The notes under the pieces were generated by a model, which was not told the DNA's origin, ran no database searches, and saw only the letters and a list, made by a program, of their open reading frames with translations. A DNA stretch of 64,000 bases from Pseudomonadota bacterium (GTDB lineage Bacteria; Pseudomonadota; Alphaproteobacteria; Rhizobiales; Rhizobiaceae), in contig JAIUPA010000003.1 in the NCBI GenBank assembly GCA_020161665.1, positions 1-64,000 on the forward strand, given 5' to 3'. A program made the translations under genes and the position numbers. Below are positions 3,068 through 14,309 of this stretch, one piece after another; position 1 is the first letter of the stretch, and each line of letters opens with the position of its first letter.

Positions 3068-3763
3068 TCAAACGGTGAGATGGCGGCGCGCCTCCGCCGT
3101 GTCCAGCGTTTCGGCAAGCCCCTCGTGAACGATCTCGCCGCGGTCCATGATATAGACGTAATCGGCCAGTTCGCGGCAGAAATCGAGATACTGCTCAACC
3201 AGCAGAATGGCCATGCCGGTGCTGTCGCGAAGATAGCGGATGGCGCGGCCAATATCCTTGATGATCGACGGCTGAATGCCTTCGGTCGGCTCATCCAGCA
3301 CCAGAATGCTCGGGCGCGTGACCATGGCGCGGCCAATGGCAAGCTGCTGCTGCTGGCCGCCGGAAAGGTCGCCACCGCGCCGCGACAGCATGGAGCGCAG
3401 CACCGGAAACAGGCTGAAAATATCGTCGGGAATGAAACGGTCCTTGCGCCCGATCGGGGCATAGCCGGTTTCGAGATTTTCTTTCACCGTCAGAAGCGGG
3501 AAAATCTCGCGGCCCTGTGGCACGTAACCGATCCCCTTGCGCGCCCGCTGATAGGGCGGCAGGCCGTTCAACGTTTCATCGCCCAGCGTAATCGTGCCCG
3601 CCGAAATGGCGTACTGGCCGGTGACGGCGCGCAGAAGCGAGCTTTTGCCCACGCCATTTCGCCCCAGAACGCAGGTGATCTTCGCCGCTTCCGCCTTGAT
3701 GGAAACGCCGCGCAGCGCCTGTGCCGCGCCGTAATGCAGATTGATGTTATCGACCGTCAGCAT
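3068..3763 (-). CDS. urtE: Urea ABC transporter ATP-binding protein UrtE
   Basis: A 231-residue LivF-type ATPase of the high-affinity urea/short-amide importer. Walker A is GRNGVGKSS at residue 34, the ABC signature is LSGGQQQQ, and Walker B is ILVLDEPTEG. It assembles with UrtD on the cytoplasmic face of UrtB-UrtC. It is the last gene of urtABCDE and begins 9 bases after the urtD stop. The urea assignment rests on gene order with UrtA and UrtB and on the adjacent urease operon; taken alone the protein could be called LivF. Confidence 0.93.
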   Translation of the reverse strand: MLTVDNINLHYGAAQALRGVSIKAEAAKITCVLGRNGVGKSSLLRAVTGQYAISAGTITLGDETLNGLPPYQRARKGIGYVPQGREIFPLLTVKENLETGYAPIGRKDRFIPDDIFSLFPVLRSMLSRRGGDLSGGQQQQLAIGRAMVTRPSILVLDEPTEGIQPSIIKDIGRAIRYLRDSTGMAILLVEQYLDFCRELADYVYIMDRGEIVHEGLAETLDTAEARRHLTV

Positions 3764-3772
3764 GATAGTCCC

Positions 3773-4525
3773 TCACCGTCCCAGATAGTTTTCGATCACC
3801 TTGGGATCGTTGCTCACATAATCGATGGAGCCCTCGGCCAGCACCGAACCTTCGGCAAGGCAAGTCACCTTGACGCCCAGATCGCGGATGAAGCCCATGT
3901 CGTGTTCCACCACCACCACGGAGCGCGTCTTGGCGATTTCCTTCAACAGAATGGCCGTTTCGACCGTTTCGGCATCCGTCATGCCTGCGACCGGCTCGTC
4001 AACCAGAAGAAGCTTCGGCTCCTGCGCCAGTAGCATGCCGATTTCCAGCCACTGCTTCTGCCCGTGCGAAAGGCTGCCCGCCAGTTCGTCACGGCGATGG
4101 CTGAGACGCACCGTCGACAGGATTTCCTCGATACGCGCCTTGTCTTCGGCGGTAAGCCGGTAGAACAGCGTGGAAAAGACGCCGCGCTTGCGGTTGAGCG
4201 CCAGTTCCAGATTGTCCCACACCGTATGGCTTTCAAACACCGTCGGTTTCTGGAACTTGCGGCCAATGCCGAGACGGGCAATGTCCGCCTCGTCCTTCTT
4301 GGTAAGATCGACAGTATCCTCGAAGAACACCTCGCCCTCATCGGGGCGCGTCTTGCCGGTGATGATATCCATCATCGTCGTCTTGCCCGCGCCATTCGGG
4401 CCGATGATGGCACGAAGTTCACCGGGCTCAATGACCAGCGACAGGGCATTCAATGCCTTGAACCCGTCAAACGACACCGACACATTATCGAGATAAAGCA
4501 GGCTTCTCGGTCTTGCTTCGCTCAT
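3773..4525 (-). CDS. urtD: Urea ABC transporter ATP-binding protein UrtD
   Basis: A 250-residue LivG-type ATPase. Walker A is GPNGAGKTT and Walker B LLLVDEPVAGM. The signature is LSHGQ rather than LSGGQ, a substitution typical of UrtD. The frame is open upstream into urtC, but the ATG at 4525 (MSEARPRSLLYLDNVSVSFDG) is the sensible start and lies 4 bases after the urtC stop. It works with UrtE to energise urea import. Confidence 0.93.
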   Translation of the reverse strand: MSEARPRSLLYLDNVSVSFDGFKALNALSLVIEPGELRAIIGPNGAGKTTMMDIITGKTRPDEGEVFFEDTVDLTKKDEADIARLGIGRKFQKPTVFESHTVWDNLELALNRKRGVFSTLFYRLTAEDKARIEEILSTVRLSHRRDELAGSLSHGQKQWLEIGMLLAQEPKLLLVDEPVAGMTDAETVETAILLKEIAKTRSVVVVEHDMGFIRDLGVKVTCLAEGSVLAEGSIDYVSNDPKVIENYLGR

Positions 4526-4529
4526 CGTC

Positions 4530-5690
4530 TTACTCCGCGGGCTGGATGGGTTTATCGACATCGACGCCCGCCTCGGCATCCTTCGATGCCTTAATGGCCT
4601 TGCGGGCGCTGACATAGCCGGAAATCGTGCCGACAATGCCCTTGGGCAGGAAGAGCGTGACGGCCACGAACAGGCCCCCCAACGCAAACAGCCAGACTTC
4701 CGGGAATGCACTGGTGAACATGCTCTTGCCGAAAGCGACCGCCACCGCGCCGATGATCGGACCGATCAGCGTGCCGCGACCGCCGACCGCCGTCCAGATC
4801 ACCACCTCGATGGAGTTGCCGGGGGCAAATTCGCCGGGGTTGATAATGCCGACCTGCGGCACGAAGAGCGCACCGGCAATGCCGGCCATCATGGCCGAAA
4901 CCACGAAGGTGAAGAGCTTCACATGCTCGACCCGGTAGCCCAGGAAGCGCACGCGGCTTTCCGCATCACGAACACCGACCAGCACCTTGCCGAACTTCGA
5001 CGACACAATCGCCGAAGCAATCAGCAGGCAGAGCGCCAGGAAGAAGGCGGTTGCCGCAAAGAGCGCGGCGCGTGTGCCATCGGCCTGCACGGAAAAGCCG
5101 AGAATATCCTTGAAGTCGGTCAGGCCGTTATTGCCGCCAAAGCCCATGTCATTGCGGAAGAAGGCCAGAAGCAGCGCATAGGTCATGGCCTGTGTGATAA
5201 TCGACAGATAGACGCCGTTGACGCGCGAGCGAAAGGCGAACCAGCCGAACACGAAGGCAAGCAACCCCGGCACGAGCAGCACCATCAGCATGGCAAACCA
5301 GAACATATCGAAGCCGTGCCAGAACCACGGCAATTCCTTCCAGTTCAGGAACACCATGAAATCGGGCAGGATCGGATCGCCATAAACACCGCGCGGGCCG
5401 ATCTGGCGCATCAGGTACATGCCCATGGCGTAACCGCCGAGCGCGAAGAACGCGCCATGGCCAAGTGAGAGAATGCCGCAATAGCCCCAGACCAGATCAA
5501 GCGCCAGCGCCAGCAGCGCATAGCAGAGATACTTGCCGAACAGCGACATGGCATAGGTCGGCACATGCAGCGGGTTTTCCGGCGAAAGCAGAAGGTTCGA
5601 GGCGGGCACCAGAACAGCCAGCGCCAGAAGCACGGCGAGCATGATGGTGATGCGGCGATCCGCACCTTTCAGGAGAAACTGCGTAATCAT
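4530..5690 (-). CDS. urtC: Urea ABC transporter permease UrtC
   Basis: A 386-residue LivM-type inner-membrane permease with about 8-10 hydrophobic segments, including the conserved WGYCGILSLGHGAFFALGGYAMGMY near residue 70 (seen in pieces) and VGGRGTLIGPIIGA. It is longer than ordinary LivM (about 300-350), as is usual for UrtC. It overlaps urtB by 4 bases and forms the heteromeric channel with it. Confidence 0.93.
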   Translation of the reverse strand: MITQFLLKGADRRITIMLAVLLALAVLVPASNLLLSPENPLHVPTYAMSLFGKYLCYALLALALDLVWGYCGILSLGHGAFFALGGYAMGMYLMRQIGPRGVYGDPILPDFMVFLNWKELPWFWHGFDMFWFAMLMVLLVPGLLAFVFGWFAFRSRVNGVYLSIITQAMTYALLLAFFRNDMGFGGNNGLTDFKDILGFSVQADGTRAALFAATAFFLALCLLIASAIVSSKFGKVLVGVRDAESRVRFLGYRVEHVKLFTFVVSAMMAGIAGALFVPQVGIINPGEFAPGNSIEVVIWTAVGGRGTLIGPIIGAVAVAFGKSMFTSAFPEVWLFALGGLFVAVTLFLPKGIVGTISGYVSARKAIKASKDAEAGVDVDKPIQPAE

Positions 5691-7297
5691 GATTCCACCG
5701 CCCGGCCCTTGAGGGCAAACAGCCCGCGCGGACGCTTCTGGATGAAGAGAATAATGAGGACGAGCACGAGGATCTTGCCCAGCACGGCCCCGACGTAGGG
5801 TTCAAGGAACTTGTTGAGGATGCCAAGCGACAGAGCGCCCACCAGCGTGCCCCAGAGATTGCCCACGCCCCCGAACACCACGACCATGAAGCTGTCGATG
5901 ATGTAGGACTGGCCAAGGTTCGGCGAAACATTGTCGATCTGCGAGAGCGCCACCCCGGCAAGTCCGGCAATGCCGGAGCCGAGCGCAAAGGTGAAGGCAT
6001 CCACCCATGGTGTGCGAATGCCCATGGACGAAGCCATGCGGCGGTTCTGCGTCACGGCGCGCATCATCAGGCCGAAGGACGAACGCTTGAGCAGCACGAG
6101 AAGCGCCAGAAACACGGCCATCGAGAATGCGATGATCCACAGGCGGTTCGAGGTGATCGCCAGACCGCCAAGCTGGAACGAGCCGGACATCCATGACGGA
6201 TTGCCCACTTCCCGGTTGGTCGGCCCGAAGATCGAACGCACGGTCTGCTGCAGGATGAGCGAAATGCCCCAGGTGGCGAGAAGGGTTTCAAGCGGACGTC
6301 CGTAAAGGAAGCGGATAACCCCGCGCTCGATGGCAAAACCGACCGCGCCGGTAATGACAAAGGCAACCGGCAGCGCAATCGCCAGCGACCAGTCAAACAG
6401 GCCCGGCGCATGGGTGCGGATCACGTCCTGCACGATGAAGGTGGAATAAGCGCCGATCATCACCATCTCGCCATGGGCCATGTTGATGACCCCCATCACG
6501 CCGAAGGTGATGGCAAGGCCGATAGCGGCCAGCAGCAGAACGGAACCAAGCGACAGGCCGTAAACGACATTCTGGCCCATATCCCAAAGCTTGAGGCTGT
6601 CCTCAATGCCGGTAATGGCCTTTTCAATATCCGGCTTCAGGCTGGCATCGGCAGCAGGAAGGGCCGCACGCAGGATGCCGATGGCATCACGCCCGCCAAT
6701 CTCGCGAATGGTCTGGATCGCCGTCTTCTTGTCTTCCAGCGGACGATCAGACGACATCAGCGATACGGCACGCGCCTCTTCCATCACTTTTCGGACACCG
6801 GCATCGCTTTCGGCAGCCAGTGCCGTTTCCAGAAGCGCGAGCATTTCGCCCGACGGCGACTTGATGACGGCTTGCGCGGCGGAAAGACGGGTCGCCTTGT
6901 CCGGCGACATCAGCGTCAGACCGCCCAGCGCCGAATTGATGGCACGGCGCAGCGTGTTATTGACCTTGATCTTGGTGAGAGCCCCCTTGGGCGCTTCGCC
7001 TGCGGCCTCTCCGCTGGCCGGATCGGTGAGCGTCAGCGTCGCGCCGGAACCTTTGGCCACGAATACCTTGCCGTCTTCCTTGCGCAGGTAAAGATCACCG
7101 GCACCAAGAGCTTCCAGCGCCGGAACGATCTTCGTGTCGCCGCTCTTGGCGAGTTCCACCACGATCTTTTCCGCATCGGCAAAGTTTGCCTTGCCCAGTT
7201 GGTTGAAAAGATCGGAAGACGCCGTTTGCGCGAAAGCCTGACCGCCAAAGGCCAAGGCCAGGCAAAGAAACCATGTTTTGAAGAGTAGTTTGAGCAT
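5687..7297 (-). CDS. urtB: Urea ABC transporter permease UrtB with N-terminal periplasmic extension
   Basis: A 536-residue protein. Residues 1-23 are a signal peptide ending in AFAQ. Residues about 25-225 are a soluble, helix-rich repeat-like region. Residues about 240-530 are a LivH-type permease beginning VYGLSLGSVLLLAAIGLAI and including the NMAHGEMVMIGAY signature. The extension distinguishes UrtB from LivH (about 300 residues) and probably folds outside the membrane; its function is not established. The gene is the second of the urt operon, after a 240-base spacer containing repeats. Confidence 0.92.
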   Translation of the reverse strand: MLKLLFKTWFLCLALAFGGQAFAQTASSDLFNQLGKANFADAEKIVVELAKSGDTKIVPALEALGAGDLYLRKEDGKVFVAKGSGATLTLTDPASGEAAGEAPKGALTKIKVNNTLRRAINSALGGLTLMSPDKATRLSAAQAVIKSPSGEMLALLETALAAESDAGVRKVMEEARAVSLMSSDRPLEDKKTAIQTIREIGGRDAIGILRAALPAADASLKPDIEKAITGIEDSLKLWDMGQNVVYGLSLGSVLLLAAIGLAITFGVMGVINMAHGEMVMIGAYSTFIVQDVIRTHAPGLFDWSLAIALPVAFVITGAVGFAIERGVIRFLYGRPLETLLATWGISLILQQTVRSIFGPTNREVGNPSWMSGSFQLGGLAITSNRLWIIAFSMAVFLALLVLLKRSSFGLMMRAVTQNRRMASSMGIRTPWVDAFTFALGSGIAGLAGVALSQIDNVSPNLGQSYIIDSFMVVVFGGVGNLWGTLVGALSLGILNKFLEPYVGAVLGKILVLVLIILFIQKRPRGLFALKGRAVES

Positions 7298-7539: not shown

Positions 7540-8829
7540 TTACTTGCCCTTGCCGCCGCACTTGCCAGCCGCAACGTTGAAGTTGCCGCACGACATCGGA
7601 GCGCGCCAGTCGGAGATCAGGTCCTTGGAGTCCGGCAGGAAGTCAGACCATTCGTCGCCAACCACCTGAGCGGTCTGCTTGACGATCGAGAACTGGCCGT
7701 CTTCCTGAATTTCACCGATCAGCACCGGCTTGGTGATGTGGTGGTTCGGCATGACGGTGGAGTAGCCGCCCGACAGGTTGGGAACGGAAACGCCGATCAG
7801 CGAGTCGAGAACCTTGTCGGTCTCGGTCGTGCCAGCGGCTTCGACAGCCTTGACCCATGCGTTGAAGCCGATAAACGTGGCTTCCATCGGGTCGTTGGTC
7901 ACGCGCTTGTCGTTCTTCGTGTAGGCATGCCAGGTCTTGATGAACTCGGCATTGGCATCGGCTTCGACGGACTGGAAGTAGTTCCAGGCAGCCAGATGAC
8001 CGACGAGCGGCTTCGTGTCGAGACCGGCGAGTTCTTCTTCACCGACCGAGAAGGCAACAACCGGAATATCGGTGGCCTTGATGCCCTGGTTGCCGAGTTC
8101 CTTGTAGAAGGGAACGTTGGCGTCGCCGTTGACGGTCGAGACCACGGCGGCCTTCTTGCCGGCCGAACCGAATTCCTTGATCTTGGCAACTTCGGTCTGC
8201 CAGTCGGAGAAGCCGAACGGCGTGTAGTTGATGAGGATGTCTTCCTTCGGAATGCCCTTGGAGATCAGGTAGGCTTCGAGGATCTTGTTGGTCGTGCGCG
8301 GGTAGACATAGTCCGTGCCTTCGAGAACGAAGCGCTTCACGCCTTCTTCTTCGAGCAGGTAGTCAACAGCCGGGATAGCCTGCTGGTTCGGAGCGGCACC
8401 CGTGTAGAAGATGTTGCGCGAGGATTCTTCGCCTTCGTACTGAACCGGGTAGAAGAGGATGGAGTTCAGCTCTTCAAAGACCGGCAGAACGGACTTGCGC
8501 GACGACGAGGTCCAGCAACCGAATACGGCGGAAACCTTGTCCTTGGCGATCAGGTCACGGGCCTTTTCAGCAAACAGCGGCCAGTCGGAAGCCGGGTCGA
8601 CAACAACGGCTTCGAGCTTCTTGCCGAGAACGCCACCCTTCTTGTTCTGCTCTTCAACGAGCATCAGGACGGCATCCTTCAGCGTCGTTTCGGAAATGGC
8701 CATCGTGCCGGAGAGCGAGTGCAGAACGCCGATCTTGATGGTGTCTTCAGCGGCGAAAGCGCCCGAAAGCGCCGTGGCAGACATGGCGGCGGCAAGGAGA
8801 GCGCCGGAAAGCTTGATCTTCAGAGACAT
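7540..8829 (-). CDS. urtA: Urea ABC transporter substrate-binding protein UrtA
   Basis: A 429-residue periplasmic binding protein. The start at 8829 (MSLKIKLSGALLAAAMSATA) gives a clean signal peptide cleaved after AFA. The mature protein begins EDTIKIGVLHSLSGTMAISE, a hallmark of the urea/amide (UrtA/FmdD/AmiC) group. An in-frame upstream extension of 32 codons has no signal character. It is the first gene of urtABCDE. A 16-bp palindrome lies 96 bases upstream of the ATG, shared with the nearby histidine-kinase gene. Substrate may include short amides as well as urea. Confidence 0.95.
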   Translation of the reverse strand: MSLKIKLSGALLAAAMSATALSGAFAAEDTIKIGVLHSLSGTMAISETTLKDAVLMLVEEQNKKGGVLGKKLEAVVVDPASDWPLFAEKARDLIAKDKVSAVFGCWTSSSRKSVLPVFEELNSILFYPVQYEGEESSRNIFYTGAAPNQQAIPAVDYLLEEEGVKRFVLEGTDYVYPRTTNKILEAYLISKGIPKEDILINYTPFGFSDWQTEVAKIKEFGSAGKKAAVVSTVNGDANVPFYKELGNQGIKATDIPVVAFSVGEEELAGLDTKPLVGHLAAWNYFQSVEADANAEFIKTWHAYTKNDKRVTNDPMEATFIGFNAWVKAVEAAGTTETDKVLDSLIGVSVPNLSGGYSTVMPNHHITKPVLIGEIQEDGQFSIVKQTAQVVGDEWSDFLPDSKDLISDWRAPMSCGNFNVAAGKCGGKGK

Positions 8830-8924
8830 GTCGATGGAACCCCTCTTTTCGTTGTGGCAATGGTGACCAAGAGAATTTGGCCCCTGCTGCAACGAACTAT
8901 CCGGCACACCTGCCGGGGGCGACA

Positions 8925-8940
8925 TACGTCATATGACGTA
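8925..8940. promoter_or_regulatory. 16-bp palindrome TACGTCATATGACGTA upstream of urtA
   Basis: A perfect palindrome ending 96 bases upstream of the urtA start. The identical 16 bases recur at 9887-9902 upstream of the hybrid kinase gene. The half-site TACGTCAT is of a kind bound by NarL/FixJ-class regulators, which makes the LuxR-type regulator at 13383-14309 the obvious candidate binder. That assignment is inference. Confidence 0.7.
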
Positions 8941-8977
8941 GCGAGGGGGGAAGAATCTGCGCATCGTGCGCACCCAC

Positions 8978-9141: not shown

Positions 9142-9771
9142 TCAACCAAGGAAGCTCTGGATTTCCGGCCAAAGCTCCAGGAATCCGGTATAAAGCATGT
9201 TGATCGTCACATAGACGATCACGCCAAGGCCCACATAGGCAATCCAGCGATGCTTGTGCAGAAGGCGCGCCACGAGATTGGCGGCAAGGCCCATCAGGCC
9301 AATCGACAGGATGAGGCCGATGATCAGCACCGACGTATGTTCGCGCGCAGCCCCGGCGACCGCCAGAACATTGTCGAGCGACATGGAAACATCGGCAATG
9401 ACAATCTGCATGGCCGCCTGCAGGAACGTCTTCTTGACGTTGTAATCAACGTCATCCGTCTCGCCTTCATGATGCGGCTGGGCGGCGGCTTCACGCAGTT
9501 CGCTCCACATCTTCCAGCAGACCCAGGCCAAAAGCACGCCCCCCAGGAAATGCAGACCCTTGAGGTTCATGAGATAGGCGGTACCGCTGGCAAAACCGAT
9601 GCGCAAAACGGTGGCCGCGAGAATGCCCACCAGAATGGCTTTGTTGCGCTGATGGGCGGGAAGACCCGCCGCCGCAAGTCCGATGACAACTGCGTTGTCG
9701 CCTGCCAGAACGAGGTCGATGGCAATCACCTGCAACAGCGCCATAATGCCTTCCGGCGTGAAGATTTCCAT
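9142..9771 (-). CDS. TerC/YjbE family integral membrane protein
   Basis: A 209-residue membrane protein with about 7 hydrophobic segments. Two acidic membrane motifs typical of TerC proteins are visible: IDLVLAGDNAVVIG near residue 20 and IVIADVSMSLDNVLAVAGAA near residue 125. Family members are associated with tellurite resistance or manganese export; the substrate here is unknown. The start at 9771 (MEIFTPEGIMALLQV) is preferred over in-frame upstream codons. It sits alone between urtA and the divergent kinase gene, so a functional link with urea uptake is not implied. Confidence 0.87.
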   Translation of the reverse strand: MEIFTPEGIMALLQVIAIDLVLAGDNAVVIGLAAAGLPAHQRNKAILVGILAATVLRIGFASGTAYLMNLKGLHFLGGVLLAWVCWKMWSELREAAAQPHHEGETDDVDYNVKKTFLQAAMQIVIADVSMSLDNVLAVAGAAREHTSVLIIGLILSIGLMGLAANLVARLLHKHRWIAYVGLGVIVYVTINMLYTGFLELWPEIQSFLG

Positions 9772-9886
9772 TCTTTCGGCCTCGCAAACCGTCATCACAT
9801 TCGTTAACGCCCGCGTTACCAGACTTTGCCCGCCAAGGAAAAGCAACCTTAAGGCGAATTGCGCGTGCCTTACGCACGTAACGACC

Positions 9887-9902
9887 TACGTCATATGACG
9901 TA
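9887..9902. promoter_or_regulatory. 16-bp palindrome TACGTCATATGACGTA upstream of the hybrid kinase
   Basis: A second, identical copy of the palindrome at 8925-8940. It ends 89 bases before the kinase ATG at 9992 and lies 116 bases upstream of the divergent terC start. The distance to the kinase gene is similar to that from the other copy to urtA, consistent with an autoregulatory site. Confidence 0.7.
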
Positions 9903-9991
9903 GATGGCACTGGGAAACTTGAAAGCCCAACCCTTTAACGCCAGGAACCGGGCATGCTAGTAAGAACGGGGAACGAAGCGGAAAGAGTAGC

Positions 9992-12900
9992 ATGACAGCG
10001 CGGCAACGCATCATTCCAGTGAGGCGCGAATACAATCGCTGGGTGGCGAACCAGACGCTGGAAGACTACGCCCTGCGTTTCACCGCCAAGAGCGCCCGCC
10101 GCTTTTCCTCCGACCGCATTTCGCAAACCGCCATCGGCGCCATTTCCTTTCTGGCGCTGGAAGCCATCGGCGGGGCCATCACCCTTTCCTACGGCACGAC
10201 CAATGCGTTCTTCGCCATTGTCGCCGCCTCCATCGCCATGCTGGCGATTGGCCTGCCCATCAGCCGCTATGCCATCCGCCACGGCGTCGATATCGACCTT
10301 CTGACGCGTGGCGCAAGCTTCGGCTATATCGGCTCCACCATCACCTCGCTGATCTATGCCAGCTTCACCTTCATGCTCTTTGCCATCGAGGCATCGATCA
10401 TGTCCGGCGCACTCGAACTGGCCTTCGGCCTGCCCGTGTGGATCGGCTATATTGTCAGCGCGCTGGTCGTCATTCCGCTCGTCACCCACGGCGTGCAGCT
10501 GATTTCCCGCTTCCAGCTGGTCACGCAGCCCTTCTGGATCATCCTCAACATCCTGCCCTTCATCTTCATCGCCTTCATGGATTCGGGGAAGTTTGATCTC
10601 TGGGTGGCTTTTGAGGGCATCCACCATGCCGCCTCCGAACCGGGCAGCTTCGCCCCCTTCCGGCTGGTGGAGTTCGGTGCGGCCTCCGCCGTCATTCTGG
10701 CGCTCATGTCGCAGATCGGCGAACAGGTGGACTTTCTGCGCTTTCTCCCCCCCGAGGGGCAGACCAGCCTTCGCCGGCGCATCGCCGTGTTTCTCGCCGG
10801 GCCGGGCTGGGTCATCGTCGGCGCGCCAAAACTTCTGGCCGGTTCCTTCCTCGTCGTGCTGACGCTTTCGAGCGGCATTCCGGCCAATGAGGCCGCTGAT
10901 CCCTCGCACATGTATGCCGTGGCCTTCGGCTACATGATTCCGAACGAGAAGGCCGCCCTTCTCCTGATGGCCGCCTTTGTTGTCGTCTCGCAGTTGAAGA
11001 TCAACGTGATGAACGCCTATGCCGGGTCGCTCGCCTGGTCGAACTTCTTCTCGCGCCTCACCCACAGCCATCCGGGCCGCGTCGTCTGGTTGGTCTTCAA
11101 CGTGGCGATTGCGCTTCTCCTGATGGAACTCGGCATCTACCGGCTGCTTGAAGAAACACTCGGCATCTTTTCGATTGTCGCGACCGCTTGGCTCTGCACC
11201 ATTTCCGCCGATCTCTTCATCAACAAGCCGCTCGGCCTCGCCCCACCCGGCATCGAGTTCAAGCGCGCCCATCTCTACGACATCAACCCGGTGGGAACCG
11301 GCACGCTCATCCTCTCGGCAGGCATTGCGCTCTTTGCCCATTTCGGCCTGTTCGGTGCGGTGGCCGCTTCGCTTGCGCCTTACATCGCGCTTGTCGCCGC
11401 CCTCATCATCTCACCGCTGATCGCCTGGGCCACGAAGGGCAAATTCTACCTCGCCCGCAAGCCGCGCCGCCAATGGAAGAACCTCACCGGCATCACCTGC
11501 TCCATCTGCCAGCACCCGTTCGAGCCGGAAGATATGGCCTGGTGCCCCGCCTATTCAGCGCCGATCTGCTCGCTATGCTGCTCGCTCGACAGCCGCTGCC
11601 ACGACATGTGCAAGCCGAAGGCCCGCCTCAATGCACAGGCCGGTTCCGTGGCTCGCAAATTCCTCTCGGAAAAGATCGTCGAATGGATGGCGTCCCGCCT
11701 CGGGCGCTATGTGCTGGCCACCTGCATGTCGATCACCGTCATCGGTGCCATTCTCGCCCTCGTCGCCCATCAGGTGGGCGCGGCTTCGCCGGAAACCGCA
11801 GAGGTCGTCAACCGCGTGACGCTCATCGTCTTCTTCGTCTTCTCGGTGATTGCCGGCGTGGTCTGCTGGTTCTATGTGCTGGCCCATGATGCGCAGGTGG
11901 TGGCCGAAGAGGAAAGCTTCCGCCAGAACAGCCTGCTTCTGAAGGAGATCTCCGCTCACAAAAAGACGGACGCGGCGCTTCAAAATGCCAAGGAAGTGGC
12001 CGAAGCCGCCAACCGCGCCAAGAGCCGCTACGTCGTCGGCCTTTCCCATGAACTGCGCACGCCGCTCAACGCCGTGCTGGGTTACGCCCAGATCCTTGAA
12101 CGCGACGACACGATCCCGACACCGCGCCAGTCGGCCATCCGCGTGATCCGCCGCTCCGCCGAGCATCTCTCCGGCCTGATCGACGGCCTTCTCGACATTT
12201 CCAAGATCGAGGCGGGTCGCCTGCAGGTCTATTCCAACGAAATCAACCTGCAGGACTTTCTCGACCAGATCGTCGACATGTTCCGCCCGCAGGCTCTGGC
12301 CAAGGGCCTGACCTTCGAGCATGAGCGCGCCCGCATGATGCCGCGTTACGTGCGCGCCGATGAAAAGCGCCTGCGCCAGATCCTCGTCAACCTGCTGTCG
12401 AATGCCATCAAGTTCACCGATAGCGGCACGGTGCGCTTCGATATCGGCTACCGTAATCAGGTCGCGACCTTTACCGTCTCCGATACCGGACGCGGCATTT
12501 CCGAACGCGACCTCACCCGGATTTACGAGCCTTTCCAGCGCGGCGAGGCCGAAAGCGTGCGCCCGCTGCCGGGGCTGGGGCTTGGCCTCACCATCACCAA
12601 GCTTTTGACCAACACGCTGGGCGGCGAAATTTCCGTGACCAGCGAACACGGCAAGGGCACCACGTTCAAGGTGCGGCTGATGCTGTCGGCGATCGACCGC
12701 CCGCTGCCCGCCCCGCCCGCCGAAAAGAAGATCGTCGGCTACACAGGGCCACGTCGCACCATCGTCGTGGTGGACGACAACGAGGACCATCGCGACCTGA
12801 TGCATGCGGTGCTGTCGCCGCTCGATTTCGTCGTGCTGACGGCGGGAAGCGGCGAGGCCTGCCTGACGCTGATCGAGGGCATTCGCCCCGATCTCTTCCT

Positions 12901-13390
12901 CATCGATATTTCCATGCCCGGCATGAATGGCTGGCAACTCGTCTCCAAGCTGCGCGACGCAGGGCAGATCGCCCCCATCTTCATGCTCTCGGCCAATATC
13001 GGCGATGGCTCCTTCGCCGGGGCCGATCAGGGCGGCCATAATGGCGCGATTTCCAAGCCCGTCGATATCCGCCAGCTTTGCGACAAGCTGGCGCTGACGC
13101 TTGGTCTGGACTGGGTTTGGGCCGGGGAAGAGCCGCCCTCCCCGCCGCCGCCGGTCCGCGCCACGCTCAAAAGCCCCGGTGCCAGCCATGTTGACGAATT
13201 GATCCGTCTTGGCGAAATCGGCTATGTGCGCGGCATCCGCGCAAAGCTTGCCGAGCTGGCGCAGCAGCCGGACAACAAGCCCTTTACCGAAGCGCTCGAA
13301 GCCTATGTGCAGGTCTTCGATCTGGCGGGCTATGCCGCCTTCCTCGCCCGCTTTGCGGATCAGGATGAAAGGAACCCGGACCATGCCTGA
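9992..13390 (+). CDS. Hybrid sensor histidine kinase with NCS1-permease-like sensor domain and cysteine cluster
   Basis: A 1132-residue multidomain protein. Residues about 25-490 resemble NCS1 nucleobase/cytosine/allantoin permeases, with roughly 12 membrane spans and stretches such as LEAIGGAITLSYGTTNA and LLTRGASFGYIGS. Residues 503-540 contain eight cysteines (503, 506, 518, 526, 529, 530, 536, 540), a probable metal or redox site. Two more membrane spans follow (about 573-598 and 610-632), then a HisKA domain with the phosphoacceptor in SHELRTPLNAVLGY (His686), an HATPase domain (NLLSNAIKF, DTGRGIS, GLGLGL), and a receiver with Asp928/929, phosphoacceptor Asp972 and Lys1022. About 80 residues of unknown function end the protein. 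The stop overlaps the next regulator gene by 8 bases. The ligand is unknown; context suggests urea or a purine-derived nitrogen compound. Confidence 0.9.
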   Translation: MTARQRIIPVRREYNRWVANQTLEDYALRFTAKSARRFSSDRISQTAIGAISFLALEAIGGAITLSYGTTNAFFAIVAASIAMLAIGLPISRYAIRHGVDIDLLTRGASFGYIGSTITSLIYASFTFMLFAIEASIMSGALELAFGLPVWIGYIVSALVVIPLVTHGVQLISRFQLVTQPFWIILNILPFIFIAFMDSGKFDLWVAFEGIHHAASEPGSFAPFRLVEFGAASAVILALMSQIGEQVDFLRFLPPEGQTSLRRRIAVFLAGPGWVIVGAPKLLAGSFLVVLTLSSGIPANEAADPSHMYAVAFGYMIPNEKAALLLMAAFVVVSQLKINVMNAYAGSLAWSNFFSRLTHSHPGRVVWLVFNVAIALLLMELGIYRLLEETLGIFSIVATAWLCTISADLFINKPLGLAPPGIEFKRAHLYDINPVGTGTLILSAGIALFAHFGLFGAVAASLAPYIALVAALIISPLIAWATKGKFYLARKPRRQWKNLTGITCSICQHPFEPEDMAWCPAYSAPICSLCCSLDSRCHDMCKPKARLNAQAGSVARKFLSEKIVEWMASRLGRYVLATCMSITVIGAILALVAHQVGAASPETAEVVNRVTLIVFFVFSVIAGVVCWFYVLAHDAQVVAEEESFRQNSLLLKEISAHKKTDAALQNAKEVAEAANRAKSRYVVGLSHELRTPLNAVLGYAQILERDDTIPTPRQSAIRVIRRSAEHLSGLIDGLLDISKIEAGRLQVYSNEINLQDFLDQIVDMFRPQALAKGLTFEHERARMMPRYVRADEKRLRQILVNLLSNAIKFTDSGTVRFDIGYRNQVATFTVSDTGRGISERDLTRIYEPFQRGEAESVRPLPGLGLGLTITKLLTNTLGGEISVTSEHGKGTTFKVRLMLSAIDRPLPAPPAEKKIVGYTGPRRTIVVVDDNEDHRDLMHAVLSPLDFVVLTAGSGEACLTLIEGIRPDLFLIDISMPGMNGWQLVSKLRDAGQIAPIFMLSANIGDGSFAGADQGGHNGAISKPVDIRQLCDKLALTLGLDWVWAGEEPPSPPPPVRATLKSPGASHVDELIRLGEIGYVRGIRAKLAELAQQPDNKPFTEALEAYVQVFDLAGYAAFLARFADQDERNPDHA

Positions 13391-14309
13391 AGCAGGTCAC
13401 CGCCGCGATATCATTCTGCTCGTGGATGACAGTCCCGAAGCGCTGGGCTTCCTCACCGAAGCGCTGGAACAGGCCGGTTACTCCGTTCTGATTTCCACCT
13501 CCGGCAAGGGCGCGCTCGGCATTGTCGAACGCATCACACCCGACCTCATCCTGCTCGATGCCGTCATGCCCGGCATGGATGGCTTTGAGACCTGCCGTCA
13601 GTTGAAGGCGAGCGCCGCCGCCGCTCAGGTGCCGGTGATCTTCATGACCGGCCTGACGGAGACCGGCCACATCGTTCACGCGCTCGAATCGGGCGGCGTG
13701 GACTATCTCACCAAGCCCATCGACATCGACGAATTGCGCGCCCGCATCCGCGTGCATCTGGCCAATGCCCGCTCGGCCCAGAGTGCGCGCGTCGCACTCG
13801 ATGCCACCGGACGCCATCTTCTGGCGGTTGCCACCGACGGCCACCTGCAATGGTCCACGCCGCAGGCCGCCCGCCTTGCCGACACGGCCGCAGGTCGCGA
13901 AAACGGTCTGGACCATGTGCTGACCGCCATCACACTCTGGATGAAGGACCGCACCCGCCCCGGCTTTGCGCAGGATGCCGCTTTTCCGGTGATGATTGGC
14001 GGGGTGGAAACGGCGCTCCAACTTGCCTTTCTGGGCAGCATCGGTCCCGATGAATTCCTCTTTCGCCTGACGGCAACGGCACAACGCAACGAAGAGGACA
14101 TTCTGCGCCGTGCCTTTTCGCTGACCGCCCGCGAATCGGAAGTGCTGTTGTGGATCGCCCGCGGCAAGGCCAACCGTGACATTGGCGAAATTCTGGGCCT
14201 GTCGGCCCGCACCGTGAACAAACACCTTGAGCAGATCTATGTGAAGCTTGGCGTCGAAAACCGCGCCTCGGCAGCGGTCAAGGCTGCGCAGGCCCTGCAC
14301 GAGGTCTGA
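13383..14309 (+). CDS. Response regulator: receiver plus LuxR-type DNA-binding domain
   Basis: A 308-residue regulator. The receiver spans residues about 9-130 (LLVDDSPEALGF, phosphoacceptor Asp59 in LILLDAVMPGMDGF, lysine in LTKPIDIDEL). A linker region of about 110 residues follows, then a C-terminal LuxR/NarL helix-turn-helix at about 245-305 (LTARESEVLLWIARGKANRDI, LSARTVNKHLEQIYVKLGVENR, given in pieces). The ATG at 13383 overlaps the end of the kinase gene (ATGCCTGA), so the two are translationally coupled and form a phosphorelay. It is the best candidate to bind the two TACGTCATATGACGTA palindromes, one in front of this operon and one in front of urtA. Confidence 0.92.
   Translation: MPEAGHRRDIILLVDDSPEALGFLTEALEQAGYSVLISTSGKGALGIVERITPDLILLDAVMPGMDGFETCRQLKASAAAAQVPVIFMTGLTETGHIVHALESGGVDYLTKPIDIDELRARIRVHLANARSAQSARVALDATGRHLLAVATDGHLQWSTPQAARLADTAAGRENGLDHVLTAITLWMKDRTRPGFAQDAAFPVMIGGVETALQLAFLGSIGPDEFLFRLTATAQRNEEDILRRAFSLTARESEVLLWIARGKANRDIGEILGLSARTVNKHLEQIYVKLGVENRASAAVKAAQALHEV

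Follow-up and report, generated by a model that had tools for sequence, protein, structure and literature searches.

A hybrid histidine kinase with an NCS1-type permease domain, encoded beside urea and amide genes in proteobacteria

The first 64,000 nucleotides of contig JAIUPA010000003.1 from a member of the Rhizobiaceae (GCA_020161665.1; this whole stretch is referred to as the window) encode a hybrid histidine kinase in which a membrane domain of the NCS1 permease type is joined to an eight-cysteine module, two extra membrane spans and a kinase core. The protein is probably a sensor kinase that arose from a transporter and responds to urea and short-chain amides, working with its own response regulator and a putative operator. 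A broader proposal, for which we see the case as evenly balanced, is that it stands for an undescribed family spread in proteobacteria, combining an NCS1 urea/amide permease, a zinc-finger tail and a hybrid kinase, with an operator controlling urt, fmd and ure genes, and that its sister proteins form a new class of urea/amide permeases in Klebsiella and Acinetobacter urease operons. The gene and its parts are:

9992-13390, + strand: hybrid histidine kinase of 1132 amino acids, open reading frame (ORF) intact
10049-11461, + strand: NCS1-type permease (sensor) domain, approximately residues 20-490 (profile-profile comparison, Foldseek, VIA-align)
11498-11611, + strand: eight-cysteine module, residues 503-540 (cysteine conservation, AlphaFold2 model, weak matches to zinc modules)
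11699-11881, + strand: two extra membrane spans, approximately residues 570-630 (hydropathy)
12020-12217, + strand: HisKA, residues 677-742, with the phospho-acceptor His686 at 12047-12049 (Pfam, E=4.8e-16)
12359-12685, + strand: HATPase_c, residues 790-898 (Pfam, E=1.3e-25)
12761-13090, + strand: receiver (Response_reg), residues 924-1033, with Asp972 at 12905-12907 (Pfam, E=6.4e-20)

The sensor domain and its cysteine module

The kinase carries every part of a hybrid HisKA protein, namely a HisKA domain with its histidine, an HATPase_c domain and a receiver with its aspartate, all three scoring far over the Pfam cut-offs. Both His686 and Asp972 are invariant in 64 relatives sampled outside the Rhizobiaceae. 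A hydropathy scan gave approximately 12 spans within residues 45-490, some of them merged, and two further spans at 574-592 and 609-627. Public annotation names members of the family 'ATP-binding protein', 'response regulator' or hybrid kinase. Two shorter relatives of 880-885 amino acids (L169 and L170), apparently without a receiver, lie near FmdA; they are the deepest branches among the kinases, and the usual adjacent regulator is not present. In the window, approximately 95 residues follow the receiver (13091-13390, + strand), where the stretch DELIRLGEIGYVRGIRAKLAEL resembles the tail of the Klebsiella homologue.

When a profile of the sensor family was compared with approximately 30 NCS1 proteins using hhalign, the match reached 99.5% probability over 421 columns, at approximately 16% identity over the profile alignment, versus 2.9% over 62 columns for an SLC5 control. 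The latter value rules out an SLC5 origin of the sensor, which also had no match to the Pfam SSF model. An AlphaFold2 model of the sensor, built from a shallow alignment (predicted local distance difference test, pLDDT, 63; predicted template-modelling score, pTM, 0.62), found Mhp1 and CodB as its best solved structures in Foldseek, and VIA-align superposed it on CodB (7qoa) with Z 24.0 over 383 residues and on Mhp1 (2jln) with Z of approximately 21. Sequence profiles alone were less sensitive. Pfam and NCBIfam gave no NCS1 assignment for the kinase, and a search of Protein Data Bank sequences with the sensor profile returned no NCS1 chain, its best matches being spurious G-protein chimeras. 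Speaking directly against the assignment, the NCS1 hidden Markov model PF02133 did not match the kinase at E<=1. The same model does hit a stand-alone sister permease from Klebsiella (37.7 bits, cut-off 23.5) and misses the other sisters, and at the level of sequence the miss on the kinase is a limit of sensitivity and not a defining trait. Residues 1-500 belong to NCS1 and not to SLC5, an assignment that rests on profile-profile, fold and sister-protein evidence, to which the Pfam model alone is blind. An earlier note, made from the DNA letters, had described the protein as a permease of NCS1 type followed by eight cysteines, two spans, HisKA with His686, HATPase and a receiver with Asp972; the profile comparison bears out its NCS1 assignment, and Pfam, hydropathy and cysteine spacing agree with the remainder.

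The sister proteins are stand-alone permeases 42% identical to the sensor, and they form one group in the sensor-region tree (support 98). Their neighbourhoods are informative in most cases. The Klebsiella sister adjoins ureG at the end of a ureD-ureG cluster, and that of Acinetobacter directly precedes a ureE-F-G-J-D-A-B-C cluster. The Moraxella and Tsukamurella sisters adjoin fmdA and a zinc-ribbon gene, and that of Arthrobacter U41 an aliphatic amidase. In Methylovirgula, the sister adjoins a kinase-regulator pair of the same family together with formamidase and amidase. Streptomyces and Arthrobacter NicSoilB11 sisters have no informative neighbour. Four of the permeases in urease or formamidase clusters are annotated as cytosine/allantoin permease or as hypothetical:

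L251:6944-8551, L250:5959-7566, L243:5914-7557 and L253:5998-7686: stand-alone NCS1 permeases

Judging by their sequences and surroundings, these are likely to be unrecognised urea/amide permeases. The names allantoin or cytosine permease suit them poorly because their neighbours are urease, formamidase and amidase genes, and other 'cytosine/allantoin permease' genes in urease operons may be misnamed as well.

The likeness to permeases raises the possibility that the NCS1 domain of the kinase still transports urea or amides, and that what the kinase signals is flux or the transport cycle and not static binding. We consider this a real but less probable alternative to a sensor that has become a receptor. 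The 42% identity to permeases of urease and amidase operons speaks for it, as does the conservation in the sensor of NCS1-like stretches (xDFxRF and an Asn-rich transmembrane segment 8, TM8), and CbrA is known to transport histidine (PMC7096432). On the other hand, a dedicated ATP-binding cassette (ABC) transporter is nearly always encoded next to the kinase, which would make transport redundant, and the ammonium sensor Ks-Amt5 has lost transport (PMC5764959).

The cysteines follow the spacing given in the earlier note, C503-x2-C506-x11-C518-x7-C526-x2-C529-C530-x5-C536-x3-C540. All eight are present in 144 of 144 homologues (64/64 in the sample outside the Rhizobiaceae and 80/80 among the nearest relatives), whereas other cysteines of the protein are not broadly conserved. 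The stand-alone permease of Methylovirgula has all eight as well. Those of Klebsiella, Acinetobacter and Moraxella have only four, matching C503, C506, C526 and C529, and the Arthrobacter and Tsukamurella sisters have lost the paired motifs. Since stand-alone permeases already hold it, the module, as read from these sequences, is either older than the fusion event or was shared across it. Which of the cysteines have been lost together suggests that it has two metal sites, C503/C506/C526/C529 and C518/C530/C536/C540.

AlphaFold2 modelled residues 484-570 as a hairpin followed by a helix (pLDDT 76). Structure searches with this model matched RING, PHD, FYVE, LIM and ZZ zinc modules at non-significant levels (E>=0.8, Z<=4.2), and Prok-RING_1 matched the module weakly (E=0.13). 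The cysteine-bearing loop is rich in lysine and arginine (16 per 100 residues), which by the positive-inside rule would place it in the cytoplasm. Overall, the module looks like a structural, cytoplasmic zinc finger; an iron-sulfur reading of the cysteines found no support. The earlier note had suggested that the cysteines may add a second input such as redox state or metal. Such an input, for instance nickel for urease, with the permease domain as a mere membrane anchor, would fit the invariance of all eight residues. We nevertheless judge it improbable, because the module, whole or in part, occurs in stand-alone permeases, the structures it weakly resembles are structural zinc modules, and conservation among homologues reaches 97% or more in 121 sensor columns, far above the needs of an anchor. 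Moreover, we know of no nickel requirement at the formamidase loci.

Between permease and kinase, Pfam and NCBIfam gave nothing convincing, with the caveat that a STAC model may not be in the library. In CbrA, the STAC domain docks beneath the transporter and has been proposed to relay its motions (PMC13022988). By analogy, the cysteine module, which is placed like STAC between permease core and kinase, may play the same part.

Linkage to urea and amide genes

The kinase gene is flanked by the following genes:

13383-14309, + strand: partner response regulator, overlapping the kinase stop codon (Pfam)
7540-8829, - strand: urtA, urea-binding protein; the ORF extends to 8925, with the signal-peptide start at 8829 (TIGR03407, 549.7 bits, cut-off 492.75)
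5687-7297, - strand: urtB (gene order and conservation in rhizobial loci, as for the next four)
4530-5690, - strand: urtC
3773-4711, - strand: urtD, whose true start is probably internal to the ORF
3068-3763, - strand: urtE
2037-2855, - strand: ureD, urease accessory gene
1638-2003, - strand: ureA, urease gamma subunit (from its translation)

The partner combines a receiver with a GerE helix-turn-helix and is thus of the LuxR/NarL type. On the other flank of the kinase lies a gene for a branched-chain-amino-acid-type binding protein, identified with Pfam.

This arrangement is conserved. In all of the 80 nearest relatives of the kinase, urt genes lie upstream and the regulator downstream; nearly all of these relatives are from Rhizobiaceae and are not independent. 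An evenly drawn sample yielded matches in 27 of 385 alphaproteobacterial and 60 of 398 Pseudomonadota genomes; some few were weak matches to unfused permeases. The family was found across alpha-, beta- and gammaproteobacteria. A wider set of 60 loci was taken from these matches. Urea or amide genes adjoin 56 of them, 19 of urea type (urt/urease) and 37 of amide type, defined by an amide-type urtABCDE set, the formamidase FmdA or both, often with FmdB and an amidase. The regulator lies directly 3' of the kinase in 58 loci, and in 42 a divergent urtA lies upstream. Annotated plasmid records confirmed the gene names at the kinase loci.

Gene content across genomes of the alphaproteobacterial sample points the same way. 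Amide-type UrtA occurs with the kinase in 16 of 16 genomes (hypergeometric p ~1e-21) and urea-type UrtA is present in 24 of the 26 genomes with the kinase versus 64 of 359 others, although the p-values are overstated because related genomes were counted as independent. The position between urt/ure genes and an amino-acid-type binding protein, as described in the earlier note, was thus found again, urtA being identified by TIGR03407, and the tie to nitrogen uptake holds well beyond this genome. Among the ligands it had suggested, gene context favours urea, to which short-chain amides should be added; nothing speaks for allantoin or cytosine.

Among the kinases in the sensor-region tree, amide and urea labels are clustered. 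Strongly supported branches still require at least four switches of label, and parsimony counts 7-9. A single pocket could plausibly have been re-targeted repeatedly among urea, formamide and acetamide, and such switching of context is expected because the three compounds are close analogues.

The family also reaches plasmids, as 340 Klebsiella plasmid records in PLSDB carry a kinase of this kind. One example, from Klebsiella quasipneumoniae, is:

L242:12001-15381: kinase beside urtABCDE and formamidase, with a palindrome between urtA and the kinase

A putative operator and the proposed pathway

We counted inverted repeats, with no prior motif, in 64 urtA-kinase intergenic regions. The dyad ATACG-N8-CGTAT and its nested forms rose above all shuffles in both the rhizobial set and the others; direct repeats, considered as an operator, were weaker. 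The resulting 18-bp consensus is ATACGTCA-NN-TGACGTAT, and 56 of the 64 regions hold a site with at least 11 of 16 palindrome positions, versus 3 of 64 after shuffling. The window has two copies, its only sites, where 0.03 strand matches are expected:

8924-8941: copy 1, ATACGTCATATGACGTAG, putative operator ~95 bp upstream of the urtA start
9886-9903: copy 2, CTACGTCATATGACGTAG, putative operator ~90 bp upstream of the kinase start

Neither copy, nor the LuxR-type regulator at 13383-14309, appears in the earlier note. A gene for a TerC-family membrane protein (9142-9846, - strand) lies between the copies, and it adjoins the kinase in some rhizobia only.

With a matrix of the palindrome, sites scoring at least 15 were found upstream of urtA in 80 of 80 rhizobia (75 in the counted interval and 5 where the site overlaps the estimated match start). 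Among them are rhizobia in which other genes separate urtA from the kinase, whose sites had not been used to build the matrix. Equally strong sites lie ~70-125 bp upstream of fmdA in L167, L172, L174, L175 and L178-L180; most of the rhizobial urtA and of the fmdA sites had likewise been left out of the matrix. In L248, such sites occur near urtA and upstream of ureD. The palindrome goes with the presence of the kinase, as a score of at least 14 was found at 8 of 13 urtA loci from kinase-positive genomes and at 0 of 17 from kinase-negative ones (Fisher p 0.0002). Reading of the sequence at urtA and the kinase made no sigma-54 promoter evident.

A scan of the kinase's own genome, allowing up to 3 mismatches, found no excess over a reversed-pattern control and no wider regulon. 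One near match (L280:1501-1518, contig 28, score 18.6) lies upstream of a nickel-uptake operon, between nikR-like and nickel-uptake-like genes that were identified from translations; it is a lead only, because the gene occurs in 1 of 60 other family genomes, and there without the site. Another near match (L279) falls inside a coding region.

We propose the following pathway. The NCS1-type domain would bind a small amide: urea in this protein and, in most of its relatives, formamide or acetamide. The stand-alone permeases related to it probably bind such compounds too. The resulting conformational change would be relayed by the zinc-finger-like module on the cytoplasmic side, and by the extra pair of spans, to the HisKA/HATPase core. 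A phosphoryl group would then be passed to the LuxR-type regulator, whose gene comes next, either directly or via the kinase's own receiver. The regulator would recognise the palindrome before urtABCDE and before the operon that encodes the kinase and itself and, in relatives, before fmdA and ure genes; there it would most likely activate its targets. The placement of the sites is most simply read as autoregulation together with control of the genes for uptake and breakdown; activation over repression is an assumption taken from the analogous CrbR and RpuR.

Several points weigh against this pathway. Five loci, L153-L155, L160 and L246, have neither urea- nor amide-type genes near the kinase, although the L153-L155 genomes carry an amide locus elsewhere. 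Among the 60 wider loci, four are of this kind, and three of the four come from genomes with the amide locus at another place. The urease-linked relatives L177, L185, L187 and L200 are without a strong palindrome; for this reason, their regulators may differ or read another site. What the sensor responds to could be the ABC transporter instead of the solute, and the palindrome could belong to another regulator travelling with the cluster.

In the first of these two alternatives, the kinase would monitor the state of the neighbouring transporter or of its binding protein, in the manner of PhoR and Pst, with the NCS1 domain as a docking surface. The close linkage of the kinase to urtABCDE-type transporters at most loci fits this arrangement, but L189, L190, L198 and L200 have urease with no urt nearby, Methylovirgula has kinase and formamidase with no ABC genes in the stretch examined, and the sister permeases are without an ABC partner, so that we regard it as unlikely. 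The second, in which a different regulator binds the palindrome and also controls the urea/amide genes, leaving the kinase pair with other targets, would account for several kinase-positive urease loci without a strong site. It does not sit well with the absence of the palindrome at urtA in the 17 kinase-negative loci, or with L153-L155, where the only strong palindrome precedes the kinase, far from urt, and we give it little credence. A kinase-regulator pair responding to urea or amides through the palindrome stays our preferred explanation.

Significance and relation to known systems

Urea and formamide commonly serve as nitrogen sources, and the kinase system is widespread. It is also directly testable, since the regulator and a putative operator sequence come with it. 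In full-text literature, mostly from non-subscription journals, we found neither a kinase fused to an NCS1 domain nor the present regulator pair described, and no report of a dedicated two-component system sensing urea or amides. The plasmid-borne urt/formamidase cluster of Klebsiella, which has a kinase homologue beside it, appears from its gene content to be UTS, a urtABC/amiF cluster whose part in the urinary-tract fitness of lineage CG307 has been discussed (PMC13060141). The text of that paper contains neither 'histidine kinase' nor 'two-component'.

In the literature covered, the characterised transporter-fused kinases are the SLC5/STAC group of CbrA, CrbS and RpuS (PMC9100948) and the ammonium sensor kinase Ks-Amt5 (PMC5764959). 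The protein described here is an NCS1 counterpart to CbrA and Ks-Amt5, and bears on how a transporter fold becomes a receptor. Like it, the SLC5/STAC kinases (PMC13022988, PMC5715377, PMC9100948) have a transporter-derived domain fused to a HisKA kinase and control the use of a cognate nutrient; CrbS is also a hybrid kinase, and RpuS/R controls an adjacent pyruvate symporter via a promoter repeat. They differ in having an SLC5 domain, a STAC linker and carbon solutes, in place of an NCS1 domain, an eight-cysteine module with two spans, and what would be nitrogen solutes. Ks-Amt5 shares the conversion of a nitrogen transporter into the sensor of a HisKA kinase, but it has the Amt fold, direct coupling and no cysteine module, and is characterised in one organism (PMC5764959).

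CodB and Mhp1 (7qoa, 2jln), the closest solved folds, are stand-alone cytosine and hydantoin transporters with neither kinase nor cysteine module. The stand-alone 'allantoin/cytosine permeases' are nearer as the sister group, some with the same cysteine tail, and likewise lack a kinase. Finally, AmiC-AmiR also provides amide-responsive control of amidase genes, but through a ligand sensor resembling a periplasmic binding protein that acts on an antiterminator, without a kinase (PMC13209695).

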